Shown here one piece after another: positions 129 through 46,344 of a stretch of DNA of 46,344 nucleotides. The DNA lies in IMG/VR virus record IMGVR_UViG_3300009081_000004, positions 1-46,344 of that record; one strand, 5' to 3'. Origin of the DNA: a virus. Numbering within the stretch: the stretch's first letter is position 1; each line of letters opens with the position of its first letter. The notes beneath the pieces are model-generated. The model saw nothing but the letters and a program-made list of their open reading frames with translations, made no database searches and was not told where the DNA came from. A program made the position numbers and the translations under genes.

Positions 129-223
129 GGATGAGTGCGCATACACGCCCCGCGCCCGTCGCTTATCCCGCGCCCCGTTAGCCCGCTATATCCATTCCGG
201 CGTGTGTATCCGCCGTTCTGGTC

Positions 224-261
224 GGAGGCTCGCAATACTTGTTCGTAGCAAGTGAGCCTCC
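224..261 (+). promoter_or_regulatory. Strong leader hairpin upstream of the 286 gene
   Basis: GGAGGCTC (224-231) pairs perfectly with GAGCCTCC (254-261). Inside it ACTTG (237-241) pairs with CAAGT (249-253) around a 7-base loop. No T-run follows directly, so it looks like a leader or processing structure rather than a strong terminator. A good ribosome site (AAAGGAG) for the next gene follows at about 273. The rest of 129-285 is GC-rich with no convincing gene beyond a 16-codon frame at 131. Confidence 0.6.
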
Positions 262-285
262 GTAAAAATATCTAAAGGAGTAAAA

Positions 286-510
286 ATGTCGAACATAATT
301 GGTCTGGAATTACAAGATAGCACTCGCCGTATTGTCGTCAAGGAATACGACGAAGCAGGGAATGAAATTGGTCAATATAACAAATCCGTAGAAGTGTTCG
401 GGCTAACACAGCGTGCAGCGGACGGGCTTACGCCCTGTCCAGAGTGCAAGGTTTTAGGCGGACATTTTTCGGATTGCTCGCTTCGTCGTTCCGGAATCGC
501 CCGCCGCTAA
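286..510 (+). CDS. Small Cys-containing protein, unknown
   Basis: A 74-residue protein with a clear ribosome site (AAAGGAG, about 8 bases before ATG). The N-terminal half reads as a small beta-rich domain. The C-terminal half has CPEC followed by a later Cys, possibly half a metal site. I do not recognise a family. It belongs to the rightward run of short genes that continues from the right end of the map, each separated by GC-rich spacers with hairpins. Confidence 0.65.
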   Translation: MSNIIGLELQDSTRRIVVKEYDEAGNEIGQYNKSVEVFGLTQRAADGLTPCPECKVLGGHFSDCSLRRSGIARR

Positions 511-548
511 AAACAACCGTTGTGCGGACTCGCCCAGGAAGGTAAAGA

Positions 549-773
549 ATGTCGGACAGAAATTTTGAGTTGCGTATCAATCTAACCGAGGATGAGGTTT
601 CTGTTTTGGCTAAATCGTCTCACGGCAATTCGTCAGTAGCTCAGTTCGTCGAATCGATGATCCGAGGATTTATAGCCGCCCAACAAAGCGTGCAACAGAT
701 TAGCGGTACGGATATGTCCATAATTGGCGCGGAAGAATGGGAAGATGCTTCCGTAGAAGATGATGAGTTATAA
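549..773 (+). CDS. Small protein with possible ribbon-helix-helix fold; 3' end lies in an attC-like element
   Basis: A 74-residue protein. Residues 5-42 read as a short strand followed by two helices, which would fit a ribbon-helix-helix DNA-binding fold; this is a guess from pattern only. The C-terminus is acidic. From base 678 the coding sequence runs into the attC-like element described separately, and the stretch GCCGCCCAACAAAGCGTGCA is shared exactly with the 45478 gene. The leader (TGCGGACTCGCCC then GAAGGTAA) also resembles that of the 45478 gene. Confidence 0.65.
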   Translation: MSDRNFELRINLTEDEVSVLAKSSHGNSSVAQFVESMIRGFIAAQQSVQQISGTDMSIIGAEEWEDASVEDDEL

Positions 774-802
774 CTCGCCAACCGCTAACGCAAGCCGTTA
801 GA
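678..802 (+). repeat. attC-like palindromic element A
   Basis: The left arm starts GCCCAACAAAGCGTGCA (678-694). The right arm is TAACGCAAGCCGTT (786-799), preceded by ACCGC and followed by AG. The two arms are imperfectly complementary, and TTAGCGG near 700 can also pair with CCGCTAA near 783. The distance from the start of GCCCAAC to TAACGC is 108 bases, the same as in element B. The middle is not conserved between copies. This matches the plan of integron attC sites (RYYYAAC at one end, a GTT-containing core at the other, variable centre), although the right core is not a perfect GTTRRRY. Confidence 0.6.
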
Positions 803-818
803 AAGCCTCGGAGCATAA

Positions 819-1502
819 ATGTTCAAACTCCCGATCTATCGACCCTCGCTGCTTGATTTGTTCTGTTGTGCTGGTGGTGCTGCTCGTGGCTACCAGCGGG
901 CGGGATTCTACGTCGTGGGAGTTGACATCAAGCATCAGCGCAATTACGCCGGCGATGAGTTCTACCAGGCTGATGCTCTTGAATTTCTAGCAGAGCATTA
1001 TCAGAAGTTTGATGCTATTCACGCAAGCCCACCATGTCAAGATTTTATCCCCACCATTCCAGAGAAGCATGGTACAGCGCACTTTCTCCCTGATACTCGA
1101 GACTTTCTTTTGAAAACTGGCAAACCGTGGATCATCGAAAATATACCCGGTGCGCCAATGCGTGCCGATTTCAAACTGTGCGGCTGTATGTTCCAACTTC
1201 CCCGCCTTCGTCGCCAGCGTCTATTTGAAACTTCTTGGCATGGCTTCGCGTTACTTCCCCCGTGCCATCATCCAGAGCATCCAATTAGTGTAACTGGTCA
1301 TGGCGTGCCATCTGCAAATTACTACCGAGATAATCTAAGGGGTGTTGAATACGGAATATTAGCCAAGAAAGCTATGGGTATCGACTGGATGACAAGAGAC
1401 GAATTATCTCAGGCAATCCCGCCCGCTTATACCGAATACTTAGGTGGGCAGCTAATGAACGTTCTTGGCGCAAATGGCAGGCTTTCTAATGCCAACCGTT
1501 AG
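819..1502 (+). CDS. DNA (cytosine-5) methyltransferase, short phage type
   Basis: A 227-residue C5 cytosine methyltransferase. It transfers a methyl group from S-adenosylmethionine to cytosine in DNA. Motif I is LLDLFCCAGGAARGYQRAGF (about residues 11-30), the catalytic motif IV is SPPCQ (about 70-74), motif VI is ENIPG (about 107-111), motif VIII is close to RRQRLFE, and a motif X-like segment (YTEYLGGQLM) is near the C-terminus. It is shorter than full restriction-modification enzymes and the target-recognition region is small. No restriction enzyme is adjacent, so it is probably an orphan methylase protecting phage DNA or altering its regulation. It begins right after element A. Confidence 0.88.
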   Translation: MFKLPIYRPSLLDLFCCAGGAARGYQRAGFYVVGVDIKHQRNYAGDEFYQADALEFLAEHYQKFDAIHASPPCQDFIPTIPEKHGTAHFLPDTRDFLLKTGKPWIIENIPGAPMRADFKLCGCMFQLPRLRRQRLFETSWHGFALLPPCHHPEHPISVTGHGVPSANYYRDNLRGVEYGILAKKAMGIDWMTRDELSQAIPPAYTEYLGGQLMNVLGANGRLSNANR

Positions 1503-9550: not shown

Positions 9551-9904
9551 TTACACCTTTTTCAGCCAGAGTCTGCCGGGCTTCCCGCGCACCCTGACCC
9601 ATTTATAGACATCGCCGTTGATGATCTTTTTATCCCCTGCCTTTACCTTCTTCTTCGGCATGGCTACACCAGAGAATCTATATTTGTGTCCGGGTTCTGC
9701 AAATTCAAGCGGTCCCATGGCTACGTCCTGTTTGTATTTTTCCTGGATCTCACGCGCCACCTTCTCGTCTTTGACGTAAAAAGAGTTCCTGCTGCCGAAG
9801 AACATCTTTTTGCCGCCAACCTCCACGTGGTCAAAGCCGGGCTTGGTGGTGGCTTTCATCACCAGCATTCTCTTTCCGGGTTTGTAGTAGCCGCCGATCG
9901 CCAT
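9551..9904 (-). CDS. Small basic protein linked to the glycan cassette
   Basis: A 117-residue Lys-rich protein (MAIGGYYKPGKRMLVMKATTKPG...). It starts at an ATGA overlap with the GT4-FkbM gene, so it is co-translated with the cassette. No family recognised. It could be a virion protein or the peptide substrate of the cassette; both are speculation. Confidence 0.6.
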   Translation of the reverse strand: MAIGGYYKPGKRMLVMKATTKPGFDHVEVGGKKMFFGSRNSFYVKDEKVAREIQEKYKQDVAMGPLEFAEPGHKYRFSGVAMPKKKVKAGDKKIINGDVYKWVRVRGKPGRLWLKKV

Positions 9905-11823
9905 CAGCTCACCGACACCTTGATCTTCTTCGGGTCCATGAATTTCGCGCAGTGCTCAACAAGTTTCTCAGGGGTTTCGTTCTCCAGTCCTCTGTGAAAC
10001 TCGCCGCGCATAAATTCCACTTTCGACAGATCCATATTCGGCAGGATCTCGTACTCTGCAAACTCCGCGTCGATCTTGAGCAGCTTGATCCTGCCTGTCT
10101 CTTTCAGAACATCACCGGCTGAAATAGACTTCACCTCGAACACCTGCGCGGCGGCCTCCGCCCGCAGATACATCGAAGAGGCGCCGTTGTTCTTTTCCAG
10201 GTCCCCGCCGATCTTCACGTCCCGGCCGTCTTTGGTCACAGCCAGGTTATGCGGGATGACGTTCTTCACTCCCGCCAGTTCGATATTCTTCAAGAGATAT
10301 TCATAGTTTTCGGGGATGGGTTCGTAGGCGTAGACCTTCGCCTTGGGGTACATCTTCGCCAGGTAGATGCTTACCAGTCCAATGTGCGCGCCGATGTCCA
10401 CGATCACATCGCCGTTCTTCACGCCCAACCCGTCCAGTTTGTAATCTCTCACGATCTCGCGCGCGATGATCTTGCCCACGCTCCCGGCATGGTCGGGCTC
10501 CACAAAATCGAAGGCGGGTTTATAGCCATTCGGGACGATCCGCTTCACACCCTTCGGATTAATAATGAGTTCGTCGTTACATTTGTAACAATAGGCGCTC
10601 ACTGTCCCATCCGGGTTGGTCAGTCCGGTCTCGCTCCATTCATGATCGTGTTTGGGTTTGGCGGCGATCTCTTCGATCACAGGCTTGAGGTAGGTCTGGT
10701 ACACGGTCTGGAAGTCGAAGCCTAAAGCAAAGTCTCGGGCTTTCTTTTCCAGCTTCGGCATGTATCCGGTTCTCCAGGCTTGATAGGCTTTTTCCAAAGC
10801 ATCCACGGCGCTCTTTACATCCGCGATCCCATAGAAGGAATTGTTGGGCGTCCACTGCTTCGCGATGATCGGCACCTTCCAGCCTGCCCCGCAAAGGGTT
10901 CCCTGCGCGGCGAAGTCGGTTGTGATCACCGGCACGCCGCAGGCCTGCGCCTCGATCAGGGGTACCCCAAAGCCCTCGCCCTTCGAGAGCAGAATGAACA
11001 CATCGAAGGCGTTATAGATCCTTGCCATCTGTTCAGGACCAAACATCTCGCCGGTGTAGTATTGCCACACATCCGGACCGATGATCTTGATCCCATACAT
11101 ATCCGCCAGCGCGCCCAGGTTCATCCCGCCGAACTGCCCCGAAAGTTCAGAGTGGATGTAATACGCCGAGTCGGGGTGTCTTTTGTGGAAGATTGAAAAC
11201 GCCTCGAAAGACTGCTGGAAGCCTTTACGGTCGAAGAAGCGGTCGATGTTCGCGGCAACCGTTCCCACCACGAAGGTCTTGTCGTCTACGGTGATCAGCC
11301 TCTTCTCGGGGGGGCGGGGGGCAAAGACGGCTGTGTCCACGCCGTGAGGGAAGTAGCGCGCTTTTACTCCATGCTTTTCCAGTTGGTCCTTCCCGAACAG
11401 ACTCATTGCCATCGGGTAGGGAGAAGCCTCGAAGCGCGAGAGGATGTCGCCGGGGATAGGGTCGTGGTCGATGGGGCCGATCGCCATCCACGGCACGCCC
11501 AGAGATTGCAACTCGTAGAGCGCTTCCATCGGGATCGCCCATAGGTCCATAAGGGTGATGATCAGATCCGGCTTGCCTCGCCTGGCATATTCCACCATTC
11601 CCTGCCAGCCGTAGCTGTGACCGTTGTTCGTGATGGGAGAGGGCTGCCATCCGCCCGGCAGGTGAGCAACACCGTCGTACATAATGGCAGTGGCGTCGTC
11701 TTTATCCATTGCCACCACGCCCACAGTGTGCCCGTCCTTTTGGAGCAGCTTCACAAAGGCATTCGTCTGCACGCCGTAGCCGGTGCGGTTGTAGATGCTG
11801 GAGGAATGCCAGAGAATTCTCAT
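9904..11823 (-). CDS. GT4 glycosyltransferase fused to FkbM-type methyltransferase
   Basis: A 639-residue fusion. Residues 1-390 form a GT-B fold family 4 glycosyltransferase: an N-terminal Rossmann half and the nucleotide-sugar binding signature GEGFGVPLIEAQACGVPVI. A short linker carries CYKC (about 412). Residues 430-639 are an FkbM-type S-adenosylmethionine methyltransferase with DIGAHIGLVSIYLA (about 476) and YAYEPIPENYEYL. The enzyme would add a sugar and then methylate it. It overlaps both neighbours by 1-4 bases. Methylated surface sugars are known in bacterial capsules and lipopolysaccharides; here the gene lies in a virion operon, so virion glycosylation or alteration of the host surface are the main options. 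Confidence 0.85.
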   Translation of the reverse strand: MRILWHSSSIYNRTGYGVQTNAFVKLLQKDGHTVGVVAMDKDDATAIMYDGVAHLPGGWQPSPITNNGHSYGWQGMVEYARRGKPDLIITLMDLWAIPMEALYELQSLGVPWMAIGPIDHDPIPGDILSRFEASPYPMAMSLFGKDQLEKHGVKARYFPHGVDTAVFAPRPPEKRLITVDDKTFVVGTVAANIDRFFDRKGFQQSFEAFSIFHKRHPDSAYYIHSELSGQFGGMNLGALADMYGIKIIGPDVWQYYTGEMFGPEQMARIYNAFDVFILLSKGEGFGVPLIEAQACGVPVITTDFAAQGTLCGAGWKVPIIAKQWTPNNSFYGIADVKSAVDALEKAYQAWRTGYMPKLEKKARDFALGFDFQTVYQTYLKPVIEEIAAKPKHDHEWSETGLTNPDGTVSAYCYKCNDELIINPKGVKRIVPNGYKPAFDFVEPDHAGSVGKIIAREIVRDYKLDGLGVKNGDVIVDIGAHIGLVSIYLAKMYPKAKVYAYEPIPENYEYLLKNIELAGVKNVIPHNLAVTKDGRDVKIGGDLEKNNGASSMYLRAEAAAQVFEVKSISAGDVLKETGRIKLLKIDAEFAEYEILPNMDLSKVEFMRGEFHRGLENETPEKLVEHCAKFMDPKKIKVSVS

Positions 11824-25035: not shown

Positions 25036-26766
25036 TTACCCTCTCCATTCGTTCCAGTGGATACGCGGAGGGCGGAAGCTATTTGCGCCCAGCCTGGTCC
25101 TCTGGAACAACTGTTCGGTCATCTGGTCATTGGCGCTATTGACCGCCCGAGCCCGCACGTCGAAGTAACCATACAGCAGCGCCACCAGGGCGTCCGCCAC
25201 ATCCCACTCCGGCGCCAGCGGGCTCGAGATATTGGGGTAGCGGTTCAGGTAATTGCGCAGGACGTTCAGGATCGGGATATCCTCGTCCGAAATGAAGAAG
25301 AAGCCCGAGGCGAGCAGCGGCTGCAAAAAGGTATACTGCCGGTCGCCCTTCTTCTCGTTCGGCAACTGCTTGCTCTCGATCGGGTTGATCCGCACGCCCG
25401 GGTTCTGCTGCACCATCTGCACAAAGAGCGCCCCGCCGCCGTAGGTCTCGCACCAGGCCCGGTTGAAGTTCGGATAGGTCCGCTGGGTCTGCACCACATA
25501 ACCCATGCCGGCGCTCGCCGAACACTTCTCAAGTATCCCCCCCGAGACGCACACGCCACCCATCGGGATCCGCAATCCATACAACATGCAGAAGTGCGAC
25601 GTGCCGCCTTCCTTCTTGTCCGAGTAGACCGGGTCGATCCCGGCGTCCATCAGCCATTCCGTTTTACGGATCGTCTCATGCCCGATCGTGTAATACTTGT
25701 AGACCGCCCCGGCGCGCCCGGCTTTGTCGTCCAGAAGGAACATTTGCCAGAACCTCTTCGGGTTCATCTGCTGGCTGTTCCAGATCCGCACCACTGCCTC
25801 CATGGTGTAGACCTCGGGCCAGGTCAATTTCACGCGGCGGTTCAGCGGCTCGAACATTTCCCCTTCCGGGTCGTCTGTAAAGATCGGGATCTTCACCAGC
25901 TCGAGTAGTCCCGTCCCCAGCATGAAGGCATACACATCGTTGTCACTGTCCCACGGCGTACACACCACTGCAAACGTCATGGGGCGCTTCGGGTCGGTCC
26001 AGGTCGGCAGTACATTGCCGTCGAACATATCCACCACGTTCTTCATCTCGGTCGCGCTTTTGGTATTCTTCTCGTCGTGCAGGTCGTCGAACCATTCGCC
26101 GTTCGTGGGGTGTAAGCCGATCAGCATCCCGCTTTCAATTCCCGCACACACCAGGCTCGCCTCTGAGGTATGGTCGGCGAAACACATCTCCCGCCAGCGG
26201 CTATACCCGCCCTCGGCGTTCACAATATTCGTATCCTGCACAAAGAAGCCCGCCTTCTTGCTCCAGCCGGCTTTCTCGTCCGGGATCACATTGGGAAAGC
26301 ACGCCTTCCAGGCGAAACTATTCTCGATGATCATGGCAATCGCATCGCCCGATTCCTGCGCCTTCGTGTCGTTGATCCGAATGAATGCCATCGAGCCGAC
26401 CGGGTTGTTCCCCAGAAGCAGCAGCACCCAGACCAGCAGATCCGTAGACTTGCCAATGCCGCGCCACGCCTGCACCATCACACCCTTTTTCTCTTTGTAC
26501 GCCTTTAGCAACCCACGCAGGATCGGCATGTGCGACTTCGGATACTCCCGCCGGGTAAGACACCAATATAAATTCTTGTAGCCCGGCTCAGAAATCTCAC
26601 GCGCCAGCGTCCCGCGCGCCCTCAGAACCTCCCGCTCCCGCTCGCTCGCCGGCGCATCTGCCCAGGCTTTCAACAGGTCGGCAACCGGAACGTTCCCCGC
26701 CTCCTTCTGGATCATTTCGATCAGCTTTTCGGTAGGAATGTTCGAAAGGTCGGAATAGTCGATCAC
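25036..26766 (-). CDS. terL: Terminase large subunit
   Basis: A 576-residue packaging ATPase-nuclease. Walker A is in AWRGIGKST (about 100-108) and the Walker B-like acidic motif in EWFDDLHDE (about 224-232). The C-terminal half has nuclease-type acidic segments (DAGIDPVYSD near 372 and DVADALVALLYG near the end). It couples ATP use to DNA translocation into the head through the portal. The start is GTG at 26766, overlapping the stop of an 11-codon frame (26763-26798, MNKELDREIDA) that follows the ribosome site CAGGAAGCG; this mini-frame may serve only to couple translation. Confidence 0.88.
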   Translation of the reverse strand: MIDYSDLSNIPTEKLIEMIQKEAGNVPVADLLKAWADAPASEREREVLRARGTLAREISEPGYKNLYWCLTRREYPKSHMPILRGLLKAYKEKKGVMVQAWRGIGKSTDLLVWVLLLLGNNPVGSMAFIRINDTKAQESGDAIAMIIENSFAWKACFPNVIPDEKAGWSKKAGFFVQDTNIVNAEGGYSRWREMCFADHTSEASLVCAGIESGMLIGLHPTNGEWFDDLHDEKNTKSATEMKNVVDMFDGNVLPTWTDPKRPMTFAVVCTPWDSDNDVYAFMLGTGLLELVKIPIFTDDPEGEMFEPLNRRVKLTWPEVYTMEAVVRIWNSQQMNPKRFWQMFLLDDKAGRAGAVYKYYTIGHETIRKTEWLMDAGIDPVYSDKKEGGTSHFCMLYGLRIPMGGVCVSGGILEKCSASAGMGYVVQTQRTYPNFNRAWCETYGGGALFVQMVQQNPGVRINPIESKQLPNEKKGDRQYTFLQPLLASGFFFISDEDIPILNVLRNYLNRYPNISSPLAPEWDVADALVALLYGYFDVRARAVNSANDQMTEQLFQRTRLGANSFRPPRIHWNEWRG

Positions 26767-26795: not shown

Positions 26796-26811
26796 CATTT
26801 CACGCTTCCTG
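26796..26811. repeat. 16-bp direct repeat CATTTCACGCTTCCTG, left copy
   Basis: Identical to 27016-27031. On the coding (minus) strand it holds the end of one frame (QEA stop), the ribosome site and the ATG of the next. The two copies bracket the 72-residue zinc-ribbon gene and are consistent with an insertion or tandem duplication. Confidence 0.8.
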
Positions 26812-27018
26812 TTTTATTGGGACGCCTCGATGGCGGCGAAATGCAACCGTGCTGCGATTGTCACGCCAAGCCCGGATGCGCAACTTGTCGCCGACGACAG
26901 TAAACCGGAACCTGTGAACCAAGCCGCAATCACAGCAGGCTATTTTGTAATCTTTACGACGCCAATCTAAATCCACCTTCTGACCTGCCTCGATGTTGGG
27001 ATAGAGTTTTTTTGACAT
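26800..27018 (-). CDS. Zinc-ribbon-like protein, copy 1 (paralogue of the 34890 gene)
   Basis: A 72-residue protein. The core PNIEAGQKVDLDWRRKDYKIA followed by CCDCGLVHRFRFTV is nearly the same as in the gene at 34890-35207, and the DNA of the two is clearly similar (roughly 80% by eye). CCDCG suggests a partial metal site. This copy ends shortly after the common core (HRGVPIKQEA), whereas the other has 36 more residues encoded within an attC-like element. It sits between a remnant of the large terminase start and the intact gene. Confidence 0.75.
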   Translation of the reverse strand: MSKKLYPNIEAGQKVDLDWRRKDYKIACCDCGLVHRFRFTVVGDKLRIRAWRDNRSTVAFRRHRGVPIKQEA

Positions 27019-29771: not shown

Positions 29772-29974
29772 CCCCTCAACGCATCGGCTCCCTCTCCAAG
29801 TCCGCCCGCCTGATCGTCCTGCAAAGGATGATCGACGCCGGCACCCTGTCCACCAATAAGAACGAACTGGCGCGGCTATTCAAAGTCTCCCGCTTCACCC
29901 TCTACCGCGACCTGGCAGACCTTGAAGAACTCAAGCCCATCTTGAAGGAACTACTCAAGAAGGTGCAATCATGA
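29768..29974 (+). CDS. HTH DNA-binding protein upstream of integrase
   Basis: A 68-residue protein starting at an ATGA overlap and ending in an ATGA overlap with the integrase. Residues 30-52 (NKNELARLFKVSRFTLYRDLADL) form a clear helix-turn-helix of the DeoR/resolvase style. Its position suggests an excisionase or a regulator of integration. Confidence 0.7.
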   Translation: MTPQRIGSLSKSARLIVLQRMIDAGTLSTNKNELARLFKVSRFTLYRDLADLEELKPILKELLKKVQS

Positions 29975-30906
29975 ACTCCCTTACTCTCTCCCCTTCCACT
30001 TTCGACTACTCCGCCCTGGACCGCGCCGACCTTGCACACGGCACCCTCCGGCACTATAAAGCCGCCATTGCCCTGCTGATCGCCTCGAACATCAACCCCT
30101 TCGACTACCACCAGCTTGCAGACTACGCCGCGGCTCTGCCTTCCTCCGGGCGCTCCAACCTCAAAGCCGCGCTGGCGATCATCACAAGGGATTACGTCAA
30201 CCAGGTCAAAGCCGGCGCGACCGTGGATAATCACGCAGCCGTGCAGGCGTTCCTCTGGAAGATCGACGCCATGAACGAAGCGATCACCATCACCCAGCCC
30301 GACTCCCAGCGCCAGCCGCATTGGCTCTCGCAAAGCCAGGTCGACCAGATCACCTCCCTCGCCCTCTCTCGCTCCATGCGGGATTACATCGTTCTGGCTA
30401 CCCTCCTGGGTGCAGGCCTCAGACGGGAAGAGATGGAGACTTTGACCTTTGACTCCCTGCGCCAGATCCCAAACCAGAACACCCTACTCGATGTCCTGGT
30501 CATCCACGGCAAGGGTGATAAAAAGCGCGTCGTCCGTATCTCCTCCCTGCTCGCCTCCCACTTGCGCGAATGGAAAGCGATCACCGGCGGCGGGCGCGTG
30601 GCTCGCTCTCTTGATAAGACAGGCGCGCTTGGGTCCAGCCTGTCCGCGGTCGGCATCTTCAGCATCGTCCGCAAATATGGCGCGCTTCTCGGCATCCCCA
30701 ACCTGGACCCCCACGACCTCAGGCGCTCCTACGGCCGGCTTATGTACGAAGCCACCGGCGATATTATCCTGGTCATGAGCCTGCTGGGTCACTCCAGCGT
30801 CAGGACCACCCAGAAATACATCGGACTGGACATCCGCCTGGACATCGACGAGGCCGCTTTCCCGGTCGGCGACAGGGATTATGTTATGAAGGTATCCGGC
30901 GATTGA
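29971..30906 (+). CDS. int: Tyrosine integrase
   Basis: A 311-residue site-specific recombinase. The N-terminal ~115 residues form a SAM-like core-binding domain. The catalytic residues are visible: Arg in GAGLRREE (about 150), Lys in GKGDKKR, His-x-x-Arg in DPHDLRRSY (about 248-256), His in LGHSSVRTT and the nucleophile Tyr in QKYIG (about 280). It would integrate and excise the phage at attP/attB. It lacks the extra helix insertion I associate with IntI, so I do not call it an integron integrase even though attC-like elements are present. Confidence 0.92.
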   Translation: MNSLTLSPSTFDYSALDRADLAHGTLRHYKAAIALLIASNINPFDYHQLADYAAALPSSGRSNLKAALAIITRDYVNQVKAGATVDNHAAVQAFLWKIDAMNEAITITQPDSQRQPHWLSQSQVDQITSLALSRSMRDYIVLATLLGAGLRREEMETLTFDSLRQIPNQNTLLDVLVIHGKGDKKRVVRISSLLASHLREWKAITGGGRVARSLDKTGALGSSLSAVGIFSIVRKYGALLGIPNLDPHDLRRSYGRLMYEATGDIILVMSLLGHSSVRTTQKYIGLDIRLDIDEAAFPVGDRDYVMKVSGD

Positions 30907-34874: not shown

Positions 34875-34999
34875 TCGCCGAACGGCGCGTTACTTGCGGG
34901 GCGGTTCTTCGGTGATATTCGACCAATCGAAACCGCCTATCGAGCCATCATCCATTTTTCGCCAGCTTTTAGCCCCGTCAGGTGCACGCTTTGTTAGGT
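34875..34999 (-). repeat. attC-like palindromic element C
   Basis: On the minus strand the left arm is ACCTAACAAAGCGTGCACC (34999-34981) followed by TGACGGGGC, and the right arm is GCCCCGCAAGTAACGCGCCG (to 34883), then TTCGG. ACCTAAC fits RYYYAAC. GACGGGGC and GCCCCGC pair. The interval from ACCTAAC to TAACGC is 107 bases, against 108 in elements A and B. The stop codon of the 34890 gene is the TAA of TAACGC. Confidence 0.65.
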
Positions 35000-35207
35000 G
35001 CGGCACAACTGGAGTATTACGATGGCGACGAAATGCTGACGTACTGCGGTTGTCTCTCCATGCGCGGATTCGCAACTTGCCACCAGCCACTGTAAAGCGG
35101 AACCGATGAACCAAACCGCAATCACAACAGGCGATTTTATAATCTTTATGCCGCCAATCTAAATCAACGGCTTGTCCTTCTTCAATGTTTGGATAATCAT
35201 TTGCCAT
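34890..35207 (-). CDS. Zinc-ribbon-like protein, copy 2, extended by an attC-like element
   Basis: A 105-residue protein with a good ribosome site (AGGTGG) at ATG 35207. Residues 1-69 match the 26800 protein closely (YPNIEEGQAVDLDWRHKDYKIA then CCDCGLVHRFRF). The last ~36 residues (from about VPHLTKRAPDG to EEPPRK) have no counterpart there and are encoded entirely inside element C. The duplication followed by a new C-terminus is a clear sign of modular gene movement. Confidence 0.75.
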   Translation of the reverse strand: MANDYPNIEEGQAVDLDWRHKDYKIACCDCGLVHRFRFTVAGGKLRIRAWRDNRSTSAFRRHRNTPVVPHLTKRAPDGAKSWRKMDDGSIGGFDWSNITEEPPRK

Positions 35208-35221
35208 GTGAACCACCTAAC

Positions 35222-35506
35222 TTATGACTTTACAAGCACGCGCTTTATTTCGCGTGCAGGTTCAAGGCTCTCCGCCTCTTTCATGATATCCGCCGCAAGT
35301 CTTGGACAGCCGCCATGTGTTCCAAGCAGCATATACTCCCCCGCCAGTTCCAGCAGCGCCTCCCGGTCTCCTGCCACAAGCGCCCGCGTGTGCCTCTCGT
35401 TCATCTGCCCAAGCTGTTCAATGGCGGCGGTCTCTTTCGGCTTGCGCTTCACCTGCATCGCGAAGCGTTCCACGATCTTGGGCTGTTCAGCAATAATGGT
35501 ATTCAT
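35222..35506 (-). CDS. Unknown early protein
   Basis: A 94-residue helical, charged protein (MNTIIAEQPKIVERFAMQVKRKPKETAAIEQLGQMNERH...). It starts at a TAATG overlap. No family recognised. Part of a run of short, tightly overlapped leftward genes. Confidence 0.6.
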   Translation of the reverse strand: MNTIIAEQPKIVERFAMQVKRKPKETAAIEQLGQMNERHTRALVAGDREALLELAGEYMLLGTHGGCPRLAADIMKEAESLEPAREIKRVLVKS

Positions 35507-42036: not shown

Positions 42037-43191
42037 CTAATTGGGTTGCGGCTCGCCCTGTGGGTTCGCCACGAATTTCTTGAACTCTTCCTTCGGCATC
42101 GGGTTCTTCAGCCTGCCGTCCGCGATTGCCTTCTCGATAGATTGCTTTGCGGATTTCGCCGGGATGTTCCATACATTCGCGGCAAAGCCAACGGCTTGCT
42201 TGTCGAGTGGGTCGATCATCTGGATCTCGACAGGTGGCGCCGGCGCTTCCTGCTCCGCCTCTTCCTGGATCTCCTCAGCCGTAACAGGAATGTCTTCCTC
42301 TTCGATCTCTTCGGGTTCGTTCACACCTTGCACTTCGGGACCAGTGTCCAGGAGCGCCACGGCCGGCATTGCCAGCTTCCTGCTCTTGGCGAGTGCCAGT
42401 TCCACAAATTCAGGATCGGCTTCAATGTGAACAAGCCAGCGTTTCATGCGGCCTTGTTTGCCGGCCTCGTCGGTGTAGGCGATCATCTGAGGTTTACGGC
42501 GCAAGATCAATGGCACTCCCGCGAAGGGGAGCCCGAGTTGGTCACAGAAGACCTTGATCGCCCCAAGCTCTCCGCTATCGGGTCCGCCCAGCGCAATGAT
42601 GTCGTTCAGAGACGTGGTAGGCAGGAGCAGGTAGCCAAGCCGCTTGAGTTCGTACAGAGTGACGCGCAATCTGCCGACCGGCTTGGCTTCGACGATTGTC
42701 TTTTCTGTGCGATGGAAAACCATACCCTCCACGAAAGAGACAGGCTGCCCGACGCGCATGGGAACTTCCAGAGGCTCGGTGTGTTTGCCTTCGGTCTTGC
42801 GCCAGATCTTCGCAGTGTGATCGAGCAGCGCCAAGCCATTCTTGATCAGGGTTTGTTTACCCTCTTTCCAGTAGAGAATGAATTCGCCGTCGCTGCGGGC
42901 GATCAGGCGATTCGATGTATACGCCTCCAGCCAGGCGCTCCAGACCCGGTCGATCTCGTTGAACGGGAACGTCACACGCAGGGCAGAAGGGCGTTCGCCG
43001 TATATTTTTGTGAAGGTTTCGCGCGCCTTCACTTCCGACTCGTCGATCTCGACCCTGAAATATTGCAAGTCCTTGCCCTGGATCTCGTACTCCCGGCCGT
43101 CTTTCACACGCTTCTCTTTCGGCGAACCCTTGCGGATCACGCCGATCTGCGGGAAAGACAAACCCCTGTCTGATAAACCTTTTATTGGCAC
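42037..43191 (-). CDS. Gp3-like protein (recombination directionality factor-like)
   Basis: A 384-residue protein, GTG start with GGAGG 5 bases upstream. The opening PIKGLSDRGLSFPQIGVIRKG and the YFRVEIDESEVKA ... LRVTFPFNEIDRVWSAWLEAY ... LIARSDGE blocks match my memory of the phage Gp3-like family, whose founder controls serine integrase direction. Many relatives occur in phages without a serine integrase and have unknown or DNA-recombination functions; this phage has a tyrosine integrase, so a direct recombination-direction role is doubtful. A Glu-rich linker (about 290-325) precedes a small C-terminal domain. Confidence 0.65.
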   Translation of the reverse strand: MPIKGLSDRGLSFPQIGVIRKGSPKEKRVKDGREYEIQGKDLQYFRVEIDESEVKARETFTKIYGERPSALRVTFPFNEIDRVWSAWLEAYTSNRLIARSDGEFILYWKEGKQTLIKNGLALLDHTAKIWRKTEGKHTEPLEVPMRVGQPVSFVEGMVFHRTEKTIVEAKPVGRLRVTLYELKRLGYLLLPTTSLNDIIALGGPDSGELGAIKVFCDQLGLPFAGVPLILRRKPQMIAYTDEAGKQGRMKRWLVHIEADPEFVELALAKSRKLAMPAVALLDTGPEVQGVNEPEEIEEEDIPVTAEEIQEEAEQEAPAPPVEIQMIDPLDKQAVGFAANVWNIPAKSAKQSIEKAIADGRLKNPMPKEEFKKFVANPQGEPQPN

Positions 43192-44704: not shown

Positions 44705-44735
44705 ATTGATCTCTGCGCACTGGAGGCGCTTCGAC

Positions 44736-45227
44736 ATGAAAATGATACCACTCTCTCAAGGAAAATCTGCTATTGTGGACGACGAAGACTACGAAGGGTT
44801 GATGCGATGGAAATGGGGAGCGCACTACGTTAGAAAATACAATGAGTGGTCTGTGGTTCGCTCAGAGCATAAATTGACTGGGCGTAAGTTTATTTATATT
44901 CACCGACAGATTATGAACGCACCTGGCGGAATGGAGGTTGACCACAAGGATGGCAATCGATTCAACAACCAGAAAAGCAACCTGCGTCTTTGTAGTCATC
45001 AGCAAAACATGTTCAATCGTAGGCCGCAAAAAGGATCGGTGTCTATATACAAGGGCGTGTCTTGGCATAAAGGTAATCAGAAATGGCAAGCCAGAATAAC
45101 GGTGAGCGGGAAACCGATTCATCTGGGTTATTATGGTAGCGAAATTGAGGCCGCGAAAACGTACGACGATTCGGCAATTAAATATTACGGAGACTATGCT
45201 TATCTGAACTTTCCAGGAGAATCATGA
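44736..45227 (+). CDS. HNH endonuclease with AP2 DNA-binding domain
   Basis: A 163-residue homing-type nuclease. An N-terminal NUMOD4-like part (IPLSQGKSAIVDDEDYEGLMRWKW), the HNH core (YIHRQIMNAPGGMEVDHKDGNRFNNQKSNLRLCSHQQN) and a C-terminal AP2 domain (YKGVSWHKGNQKWQARITVSGKPIHLGYY) are in the usual order. Such genes move by cutting alleles that lack them. It lies between the small HTH gene and the small-gene block. Confidence 0.9.
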   Translation: MKMIPLSQGKSAIVDDEDYEGLMRWKWGAHYVRKYNEWSVVRSEHKLTGRKFIYIHRQIMNAPGGMEVDHKDGNRFNNQKSNLRLCSHQQNMFNRRPQKGSVSIYKGVSWHKGNQKWQARITVSGKPIHLGYYGSEIEAAKTYDDSAIKYYGDYAYLNFPGES

Positions 45228-45424: not shown

Positions 45425-45477
45425 GTGTACATTCAGCTTAATCACTAGTTGGGCGGACTCGCCCGAAAGAAGGTAAT

Positions 45478-45711
45478 ATGCAATCAGTTTCTTTAGTTGT
45501 TCGTGTTGATGCTGGCGCGGTGAATATCACCCCCGAATTAGTTGAAGAGGCTATAAATTTCTACATTGGTTCAGATGGTGCTGTGTCTGTATTTCACGCC
45601 GCCCAACAAAGCGTGCACTTGACGGGGGGCGGGCTGTGTGTTTGCGATGTTGATCCCTCCGTCAATCGTATTGATGGTGTCTGCCTACTCTGCGGGCTCC
45701 CCCGCAAGTAA
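45478..45711 (+). CDS. Small Cys protein ending in an attC-like element
   Basis: A 77-residue protein with AAGG before ATG. The N-terminal ~40 residues are a small alpha/beta unit. From base 45601 the code runs through element B and its stop (TAA) is part of TAACGC, giving the ending LPRK, similar to PPRK in the 34890 gene. The C-terminal Cys pairs (CVCD, CLLCG) could still bind metal. Confidence 0.55.
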   Translation: MQSVSLVVRVDAGAVNITPELVEEAINFYIGSDGAVSVFHAAQQSVHLTGGGLCVCDVDPSVNRIDGVCLLCGLPRK

Positions 45712-45728
45712 CGCAAGCCGTTCGGTGG
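45601..45728 (+). repeat. attC-like palindromic element B
   Basis: Left arm GCCCAACAAAGCGTGCACTT (45601-45620) followed by GACGGGGGGC; right arm CTCCCCCGCAAGTAACGCA (45697-45715), then AGCCGTTCGG. The arms pair (AAC/GTT, GCGT/ACGC, CTTG/CAAG, GGGGG/CCCCC). The spacing from GCCCAAC to TAACGC is 108 bases, as in element A. Confidence 0.65.
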
Positions 45729-45801
45729 CGCTCGGAGACTGATGAGTACATCAGCCCCCTCGTTAGCCCCCGTTTGCCCGCAATGAGAAGTTAGGTACTA
45801 C

Positions 45802-46077
45802 ATGGCTAAATGTGTTGAGTGTGAAAATAAAGCGATTGGCTATATAGGCAACATTCCCGTGTGTGGGATGAGTTGCGGAAAGGTCGTACTTATGAAAGTT
45901 ATGAAACGATCAATATCTATCTGCCCTAAATGCGGGGCGGATATGGATCTAAAGATCGATGATGGGCGGTCGTGGCGTGAATGTTATATCTGTCATTACA
46001 TCCAGGATGATGCCCCGGAGCCCGCAGTGTCGAATCCTCGCCTCGCCACCGAACGGGGCGCGGGATCATTCACGTAG
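45802..46077 (+). CDS. Double zinc-ribbon protein
   Basis: A 91-residue protein. Two Cys clusters: CVECENKAIGYIGNIPVCGMSCG (about 4-26) and CPKCGADM ... ECYICH (about 38-62). Probably two small zinc ribbons. The spacer before it (45729-45801) has a perfect CTGATG/CATCAG hairpin (45739-45754) and GTTAGGT, which fits the attC core pattern. Confidence 0.65.
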   Translation: MAKCVECENKAIGYIGNIPVCGMSCGKVVLMKVMKRSISICPKCGADMDLKIDDGRSWRECYICHYIQDDAPEPAVSNPRLATERGAGSFT

Positions 46078-46099
46078 TTCTTGAAAGCAAAGAGGTGTC

Positions 46100-46344
46100 A
46101 TGAGCAAAGAAGAATTCATTATCTGGGTATTCTTGTTTGTTGCGATAGCTTCCCTAATTAGGGATGTGGCGTCTCTTCGTCATGAGATAGCAAAATTGAC
46201 TTCTTCGTTACGCGCCACCGAACTACGGAATGAAGCGATCGGGGCAGGGGCGGACGAATTAGGGAATTTCGTCTCTTGCCCAAAATGTGGCGAACGCCGC
46301 AATCAATATGGCGATTCTGTAATCGCTTGCCAGCATTGTGGTGA
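46100..46344 (+). CDS. Membrane-anchored zinc-ribbon protein, N-terminal part (crosses the join)
   Basis: ATG 46100 (GAGGTG upstream). This part encodes the N-terminal membrane span (EEFIIWVFLFVAIASLI), a charged helix and the ribbon; the last codons and stop are at 104-128 on the joined map. See the entry at 1-128. Confidence 0.75.
   Translation, partial: MSKEEFIIWVFLFVAIASLIRDVASLRHEIAKLTSSLRATELRNEAIGAGADELGNFVSCPKCGERRNQYGDSVIACQHCG
46242..46344. repeat. Terminal direct repeat, right copy
   Basis: Identical to 1-103. Confidence 0.95.

Follow-up and report, generated by a model that had tools for sequence, protein, structure and literature searches.

Putative integron attC sites and gene cassettes in a phage genome that lacks an integron integrase

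We asked whether repeated elements in a phage genome are the attC sites of integron gene cassettes and, if so, how such cassettes could have come to lie there. Integrons are generally regarded as bacterial devices. The window, that is the whole stretch of DNA analysed, comprises the 46,344 nucleotides of IMG/VR virus record IMGVR_UViG_3300009081_000004. A sequence-only reading had placed attC-like elements at 678-802 and 45601-45728 on the plus strand and at 34875-34999 on the minus strand, and these positions were confirmed: R1, a covariance model of 60 elements, matched all three with scores of 72-92 bits. Two of the three were part of the R1 training set; the element at 674-807 was not. R1 also matched a decayed element that the reading had missed (397-529, E 1.7e-9) and gave no match above 7 bits in the window beyond these four sites. 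The count is corrected to four recognisable attC sites and a fifth, at 1481-1500, with its stem deleted. The arm AACAAAGCGTGCA occurs in three exact copies in the window and AACAAAGCGTGCANNTGACGGGG in two, and the longer AACAAAGCGTGCANNTGACGGGG pattern had no occurrence in 100 shuffles. An Rfam scan of the window returned no match, and a tRNA search found none. Folding the three elements singly gave z-scores of -1.8 to +0.2; the long loop dominates these values and the test is uninformative.

Bases 1-103 are an exact direct repeat of 46242-46344, indicating that the genome is circular or terminally redundant. Since the map closes across its ends, 45605, 405 and 682 are neighbouring sites of a single array rather than scattered elements, and the two plus-strand elements that appear to be 45 kb apart are adjacent across the junction. 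These three sites satisfy the definition of a CALIN, namely two or more attC close together on one strand without intI. The large terminase TerL (25036-26766) had no tblastn match among about 50,000 GenBank phages (INPHARED), as would be the case for a phage lineage without close cultured relatives, and a search of viral contigs with it found no relatives beyond G021. This one close relative matches the window at 99.98-100% identity over 5491-40682, carries the same minus-strand cassette and is essentially the same phage; two more distant contigs (L005 and L006) have only one gene in common with the window. With G021 as the only near relative, none with an empty site, lacking cassettes, was found. 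Among the other genes of the window, 9904-11823 encodes a single protein whose N-terminal half resembles glycosyltransferases and whose C-terminal part resembles methyltransferases, and 42037-43191 encodes a Gp3-like or recombination-directionality-factor-like domain (PF18897).

The elements belong to a larger family. The pattern AACAAAGCGTGCA-N70-100-TAACGC matched 68 stretches of viral contigs and at least 120 stretches of bacterial genomes. Around four fifths of the bacterial stretches are from Chloroflexota, as judged from record titles, and many have tandem copies on the same strand. The exact seed pattern biases this collection towards a single attC type; sites were dereplicated by sequence rather than by contig, and loci overlap between searches. 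About 200 relatives have one covarying, bulged hairpin in common with the window elements. In an alignment of 60 sequences, 94% of cells were paired and nine of the 18 pairs had compensatory changes. Double changes numbered 198 as against 74 after shuffling, and the covariation score was 0.43 as against 0.11, with none of 500 shuffles reaching the observed score. When the pairing partners were slid by one to three columns, the score fell to at most 0.11. In 97 dereplicated elements the variable pairs of the inner stem covaried (z up to 12), and in 83 of these the left arm contained an unpaired A beyond which the register was shifted by one. This one-sided unpaired A sits where class 1 attC have theirs.

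The cassette boundaries were examined by delimiting cassettes as [TT...G], cut at G|TT. Within a single site, the bases flanking AAC and GTT showed no covariation in the 97 elements. The seven-base flank of R'' instead pairs with the opening bases of its own cassette, which follow the GTT of the preceding site. Over 87 pairs, own-start pairing was 84-98% at positions 1-6 (z 6-11), whereas same-site pairing, with the nearly invariant second position set aside, was 34-55%. In viral arrays alone the mean own-start match was 5.38 of seven bases versus 3.72 for the same site (shuffled, 3.75 +/- 0.15), and in host arrays the values were 6.38 and 3.55. To our knowledge, no process other than integrase cleavage at G|TT yields such pairing. 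It is very likely that own-start pairing is the trace of this cleavage, inferred here from sequence alone, and that the R' following a cassette belongs to its neighbour.

AAC is invariant in the family consensus and GTT nearly so. The R'' sequences GCCCAAC/ACCTAAC agree with RYYYAAC, while R' is GTTAGAA in S1 and GTTCGG in S2 and S3 (sites as in Table 1), and GTTCGG deviates from the classical GTTRRRY. R2, a small attC model made from Vibrio and Shewanella sites, found no match in the window. R2 also missed every site in three IntI-adjacent Chloroflexota arrays, yet it finds class 1 attC; its failure on the window is therefore uninformative, and the check that could have refuted the sequence-only reading, attC models scoring at background, gave a mixed result. 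The attC plan that had been claimed held, being supported by covariation, by the own-cassette signature and by arrays of such sites adjoining genuine IntI. The claim that an element supplies the stop codon and a C-terminal PRK held for the elements at 45601 and 34875. Complementarity of the inner arms held in part: the element at 678-802 is unpaired in the family register (three of five pairs in an ungapped test), and its arms AGCGGT/ACCGCT pair with an enlarged internal loop. With the structural and boundary tests met and the classical consensus partly met, we regard the window elements as very probable attC sites; recombination at them is inferred and has not been assayed.

Table 1 Features of the window that bear on the cassette reading; cassettes, attC sites and the attI-like site are predictions
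Feature	Positions	Strand	Remarks
Direct terminal repeat	1-103 = 46242-46344		exact identity, repeat family D2
Cassette 1	45449-45720	+	begins G|TTGGGCGGAC, closes at G of R'; ORF 45478-45711
attC S3	45605-45722	+	R'' AAC 45605-45607, R' GTT 45720-45722; R1 92.3 bits
Cassette 2	45721-46344, on through terminal repeat to about 177	+	delimited from sequence
Cassette 3	178-519	+	begins G|TTAGCCCGC; ORF 286-510 (74 aa)
attC S4, decayed	405-521	+	R1 38.5 bits; L' TAACGC changed to TAAAAAC
Cassette 4	520-797	+	begins G|TTGTGCGGAC; ORF 549-773 (74 aa)
attC S1	682-799	+	R1 71.7 bits; left arm with enlarged internal loop
Cassette 5	798-1498	+	DNA methyltransferase ORF 819-1502 (phrog_363)
Dead attC of methyltransferase cassette	1481-1500	+	R'' GCTTTCT-AA fused to TGCCAACC-GTT; no R1 match
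S2 cassette	34883-35220	-	begins G|TTAGGTGGTTCACA; gene 34890-35207
attC S2	34881-34995	-	R1 73.1 bits
S2-gene paralogue	26800-27018	-	72 aa; without attC and without attC-encoded tail
attI-like insertion site	35219-35243	-	GCGCGTGCTTGTAAAGTCATAA|GTT at end of gene 35222-35506
Tyrosine recombinase	29971-30906	+	PF00589; TIGR02249 19.6 bits, cut-off 265

The plus-strand array extends from 45449 to about 1500. The ORF of cassette 1 (77 aa, C-terminus PRK) reads through S3 and stops at the TAA in L', and the start of this cassette is complementary to its own R'' at six of seven bases. In cassette 2, the ORF at 45802-46077 has weak Lar-like and zinc-ribbon matches (PHROG/Pfam), a second ORF, running from 46100 over the map ends to 128, is zinc-ribbon-like with a weak match, and no attC of its own is recognisable. 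The start of cassette 3 is complementary to R'' of S4 (GGGCT|AAC), and that of cassette 4 to R'' of S1 at five of seven bases. Cassette 5 begins with AGAAAGC, a 7/7 complement of its R'' GCTTTCT, but its 3' end reads GGCTTTCTAATGCCAACCGTT and the whole stem is absent. The stem may have been lost as if by deletion between two CTAA copies, a possibility that we infer only. Since the stem is missing, the methyltransferase cassette is probably fixed in place. An HNH-AP2 homing-type endonuclease gene (44706-45227) lies directly upstream of the array. Several cassettes open with TTGGGCGGACTCGCCC or near variants of it (45449-45465 and 520-535 in the window; contigs L054 and L021); starts of this type form a small hairpin right after the boundary, possibly a cassette leader or terminator element.

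An integrase that could act on these sites was sought with TIGR02249, for which the integron integrase cut-off is 265 bits. The window contains no intI and is not a complete integron. Its sole tyrosine recombinase was ruled out as IntI by its score (Table 1), and the earlier statement that no IntI is recognisable held. In contrast to the window, among 38 related viral contigs that carry these attC, seven encode an IntI over the cut-off (376-428 bits), and the viral IntI bear the IntI-specific patch ALxxKYPNA..W.WQYVFPA. IMG/VR records may include plasmids or host flanks; phage identity was checked for four of these seven contigs, which carry genes for TerL (G025, G046) or HK97 capsid (G044, G047). 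In G046, intI, three attC and genes for a terminase, a GH25 lysin and an AAA_24 ATPase all lie on one strand. A profile search of viral contigs yielded 162 IntI-encoding stretches, and the top 80 were retained. A quick tree of 105 IntI placed 19 viral IntI in one clade (SH-aLRT 99) and four further viral IntI in a second (SH-aLRT 100), both standing apart from the Chloroflexota IntI; the closest bacterial match to a phage IntI had 60% identity. About 40 other viral IntI fall outside the two clades, and the clade claim does not concern all viral IntI. The second clade (L295, L296, L297, L318) has a different end-of-intI sequence, GGATA|GTT, and L298 (IMGVR_UViG_2834908352_000001) and about 40 other loci outside the 19-member clade have no R1-type attC nearby.

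Host arrays with the same arms were also found. An IntI over the TIGR02249 cut-off, scoring up to 462 bits, was present in 12 of 20 genomes with these elements, and R1 found arrays around seven of those IntI, every one lying 5' of intI on the strand opposite to it. Over eight host loci, 50 of 50 sites were opposite to intI and 5' of it. These Anaerolineae arrays, divergent from genuine intI, are ordinary complete chromosomal integrons. Strong IntI matches are present in 71 of 298 genomes of the host class to which one Anaerolineales bin (G001) belongs. The window's own host is possibly of the Chloroflexota type, as judged from the attC type only.

The viral loci are built differently. Over 16 of them, 35 of 35 sites lie on the intI strand and 3' of intI; in a few cases two loci may derive from one contig. 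A GTT adjoins the 3' end of intI at 20 viral loci, as TGAATCATGA|GTT or variants, and at several of these the predicted start of the first cassette is exactly at that GTT. It therefore appears that attI consists of the last codons and stop of intI, which we consider likely but infer without assay. The median gap between sites is 360 nt in viruses versus 794 nt in hosts. We infer that the viral integrons are likely a distinct type with its own integrase clade and architecture.

The minus-strand S2 cassette lies apart from the array. Its gene has a CxxC (zinc-ribbon-like) body and a C-terminal tail encoded by attC, and its start matches R'' at 12 of 15 bases by eye, with five of seven over the first seven. 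The paralogue elsewhere in the genome is 80% identical over 176 nt, and the roughly 36 additional residues of the S2 copy are those encoded by attC. The insertion site shares 20 of 25 bases with the intI-end attI of a phage; it encodes IKRVLVKS*, and the IntI of that phage ends in MRRVVVES*. A matrix was built from viral intI-end sites and scored on all 1261 GTT of the window, where the S2 cassette start ranked 1st and the array start at 45448 ranked 12th. By local alignment, the S2 junction ranked 2nd of 1260. Both rankings are convincing, and the S2 insertion point is likely an attI-like target, though this too rests on inference. The array start was not convincing as such a site, being 118th of 1260 by alignment despite its matrix rank. 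The uninterrupted form of the S2 insertion site would read GTCATAAGTT.

The S2 gene and the ORF of cassette 1 continue into their attC, and this proved common in viruses. Of 110 sites in viral contigs, 67 (61%) have an ORF that spans the two arms with their loop and ends at the L' TAA, compared with 18 and 4 sites open in the two remaining frames. The corresponding counts for the 216 host sites, 22 (10%), 24 and 13, are at background level; a first count by pattern had given read-through in 38 of 60 viral versus 12 of 185 host sites. Knuckles of the form CxxC-n-CxxC/H occur in 18 of the 67 tails versus three of 220 control frames, and the remaining tail types include basic and hydrophobic ones. 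A codon-position test on related loops (0.35/0.27/0.38) went in the expected direction and was not significant. It is likely that attC supplies a C-terminal protein tail, often a zinc knuckle, with translation and function of the tail inferred.

Bodies and tails have also been reassorted. Read-through proteins were split at AAC and exact duplicates removed before comparison. Five pairs shared the body with different tails, 16 shared the tail with different bodies and none shared both. At the DNA level, three of four inspected same-body pairs were 71-89% identical up to AAC and unrelated beyond it, the fourth being offset near the joint; same-tail pairs were unrelated before AAC and 69-81% identical after it. 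L021/L024 and L052 have a zinc-knuckle tail in common, preceded by left arms that are read in different frames. As identity switches at AAC, the joint must lie at R'' or inside the shared 13-mer. Bottom-strand recombination at R' was rejected as the cause, as it cannot produce a joint at R''. The swaps could arise by top-strand recombination at R'' or by homologous exchange.

We propose that the window elements are very likely attC of gene cassettes, forming an integrase-less array and one cassette on the opposite strand, with recombination activity inferred. As single strands the sites would fold into bulged hairpins, IntI would cut the R box and cassettes would be joined at G|TT. Since the window lacks IntI, its cassettes could be inserted and moved only by an IntI in trans, the putative source being an IntI-bearing phage or prophage of a related lineage or a Chloroflexota host with a chromosomal integron. 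An insertion of this kind would be expected to leave a cassette placed as S2 is, in attI-like sequence where a phage gene ends. The wider set of viral integrons is likely a phage-adapted type, with intI upstream on the array strand, attI formed by the intI end, compact cassettes and coding attC. Against the attC reading speak the absence of IntI from the window, the decay of two of its five sites, the GTTCGG of S2 and S3, the missing R2 match and the lack of an empty-site relative. An origin in a phage cassette pool fits better than the earlier suggestion of cassettes taken from a host array, since phage-type sites differ from host sites in their coding loops and shorter cassettes and since other phages carry their own IntI.

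The rival that survives best concerns the tails only: the read-through ORFs may be chance open frames, with real genes stopping before attC. The non-significant codon-position test and the tailless S2 paralogue support this view. It is unlikely, since only the L'-TAA frame is commonly open in viruses (67 versus 18 and 4; hosts 22/24/13), knuckle pairs are found in 18/67 tails but only 3/220 control frames, and related tails hold the tail frame even where the left arm is read in different frames. A second rival regards the cassettes as passive passengers, part of a host integron taken by imprecise prophage excision or recombination and inert in phages. Such acquisition is documented for Vibrio anguillarum phages (PMC9892861), and the lack of intI and the decay of sites 405 and 1481 would agree with it. 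We consider it very unlikely, as host attC have a non-coding loop and a median spacing of 794 nt whereas phage attC are coding with 360 nt, the S2 cassette stands apart at an attI-like position of the opposite strand, a paralogue of the S2 gene occurs elsewhere in the same phage, and other phages have their own IntI clade. The weakest rival takes the elements for gene-end repeats, terminator-like hairpins spread in Chloroflexota and their phages and unrelated to an integrase; they do sit at gene ends, fold and abound in Chloroflexota, but terminators predict neither own-start pairing nor IntI-adjacent arrays nor a bulged A, whereas here the R'' flank pairs with its own cassette start hundreds of bases upstream and not with the same-site flank, tandem single-strand arrays adjoin IntI and the bulged A is one-sided as in attC, so that the own-start signature, unless it is an alignment artefact, all but excludes this rival.

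Beyond the cassette reading itself, we lean, by a narrow margin, towards a bolder one in which phages of Chloroflexota-type hosts, and perhaps others, have their own integron lineage with exchangeable attC-encoded tails. Exchange at R'' would then join new ORF bodies to attC-borne tails, giving new cassettes and new fusion proteins; top-strand recombination between two attC and homologous exchange within the conserved 13-mer are two conceivable routes. How an ordinary gene acquires an attC is an old open question. Body and tail swaps with a joint at R'' make the genesis of cassettes testable, and the bolder reading, if true, would offer a direct view of a gene acquiring its attC. The cassette reading also implies that phages trade small genes as cassettes, methyltransferases and possible anti-restriction proteins among them, and that protein tails, whose translation is inferred, can be supplied by a recombination site.

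In the open-access literature, excluding subscription papers and preprints, we found no phage IntI clade and no attI at a phage intI end, nor, within the same limits, attC coding for protein tails. The viral IntI clade, the intI-end attI, the coding attC and the mixing of bodies and tails are thus likely undescribed, as far as that literature goes. Already published are attC clusters in phages, their recombination by IntI1 and same-orientation integrons in Treponema. Qi et al. 2023 (PMC9892861) described attC-only clusters (CALINs) in virulent and temperate phages such as TJE1, P12002L and PH101, and five of six such phage sites were shown experimentally to be IntI1 substrates. The window resembles these CALINs in having attC arrays without intI in a phage and cassette-borne DNA methyltransferases. 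Its attC, however, are Chloroflexota-like whereas those CALIN attC are of a different type; that study reported no phage IntI clade, intI-end attI or coding attC, and its complete integrons are segments of host or class 1 integrons. The chromosomal integrons of Anaerolineae share with the window the 13-nt left arm, the L' TAACGC, the bulged A and the own-start signature, but differ in their divergent intI (50/50 sites), non-coding loop and longer cassettes. Vibrio VCR and Shewanella attC (AACAA[AG]GCGTT...TTAACGC.GCGTTA) have the same R/L box layout as the window sites, while their stem and loop sequences differ. R1 matched one Shewanella phage attC (16.9 bits, E 0.006). A Shewanella prophage attC (L224:14964-15082) reads GCACCTGACG...CGCAGGTGAACGC and comes very close to the Chloroflexota arm, a likeness that might reflect a common origin or convergent constraint. 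The same-orientation integrons of Treponema (PMC3607928) have intI and cassettes on one strand, as the viral type does, but they reside in spirochaete chromosomes.
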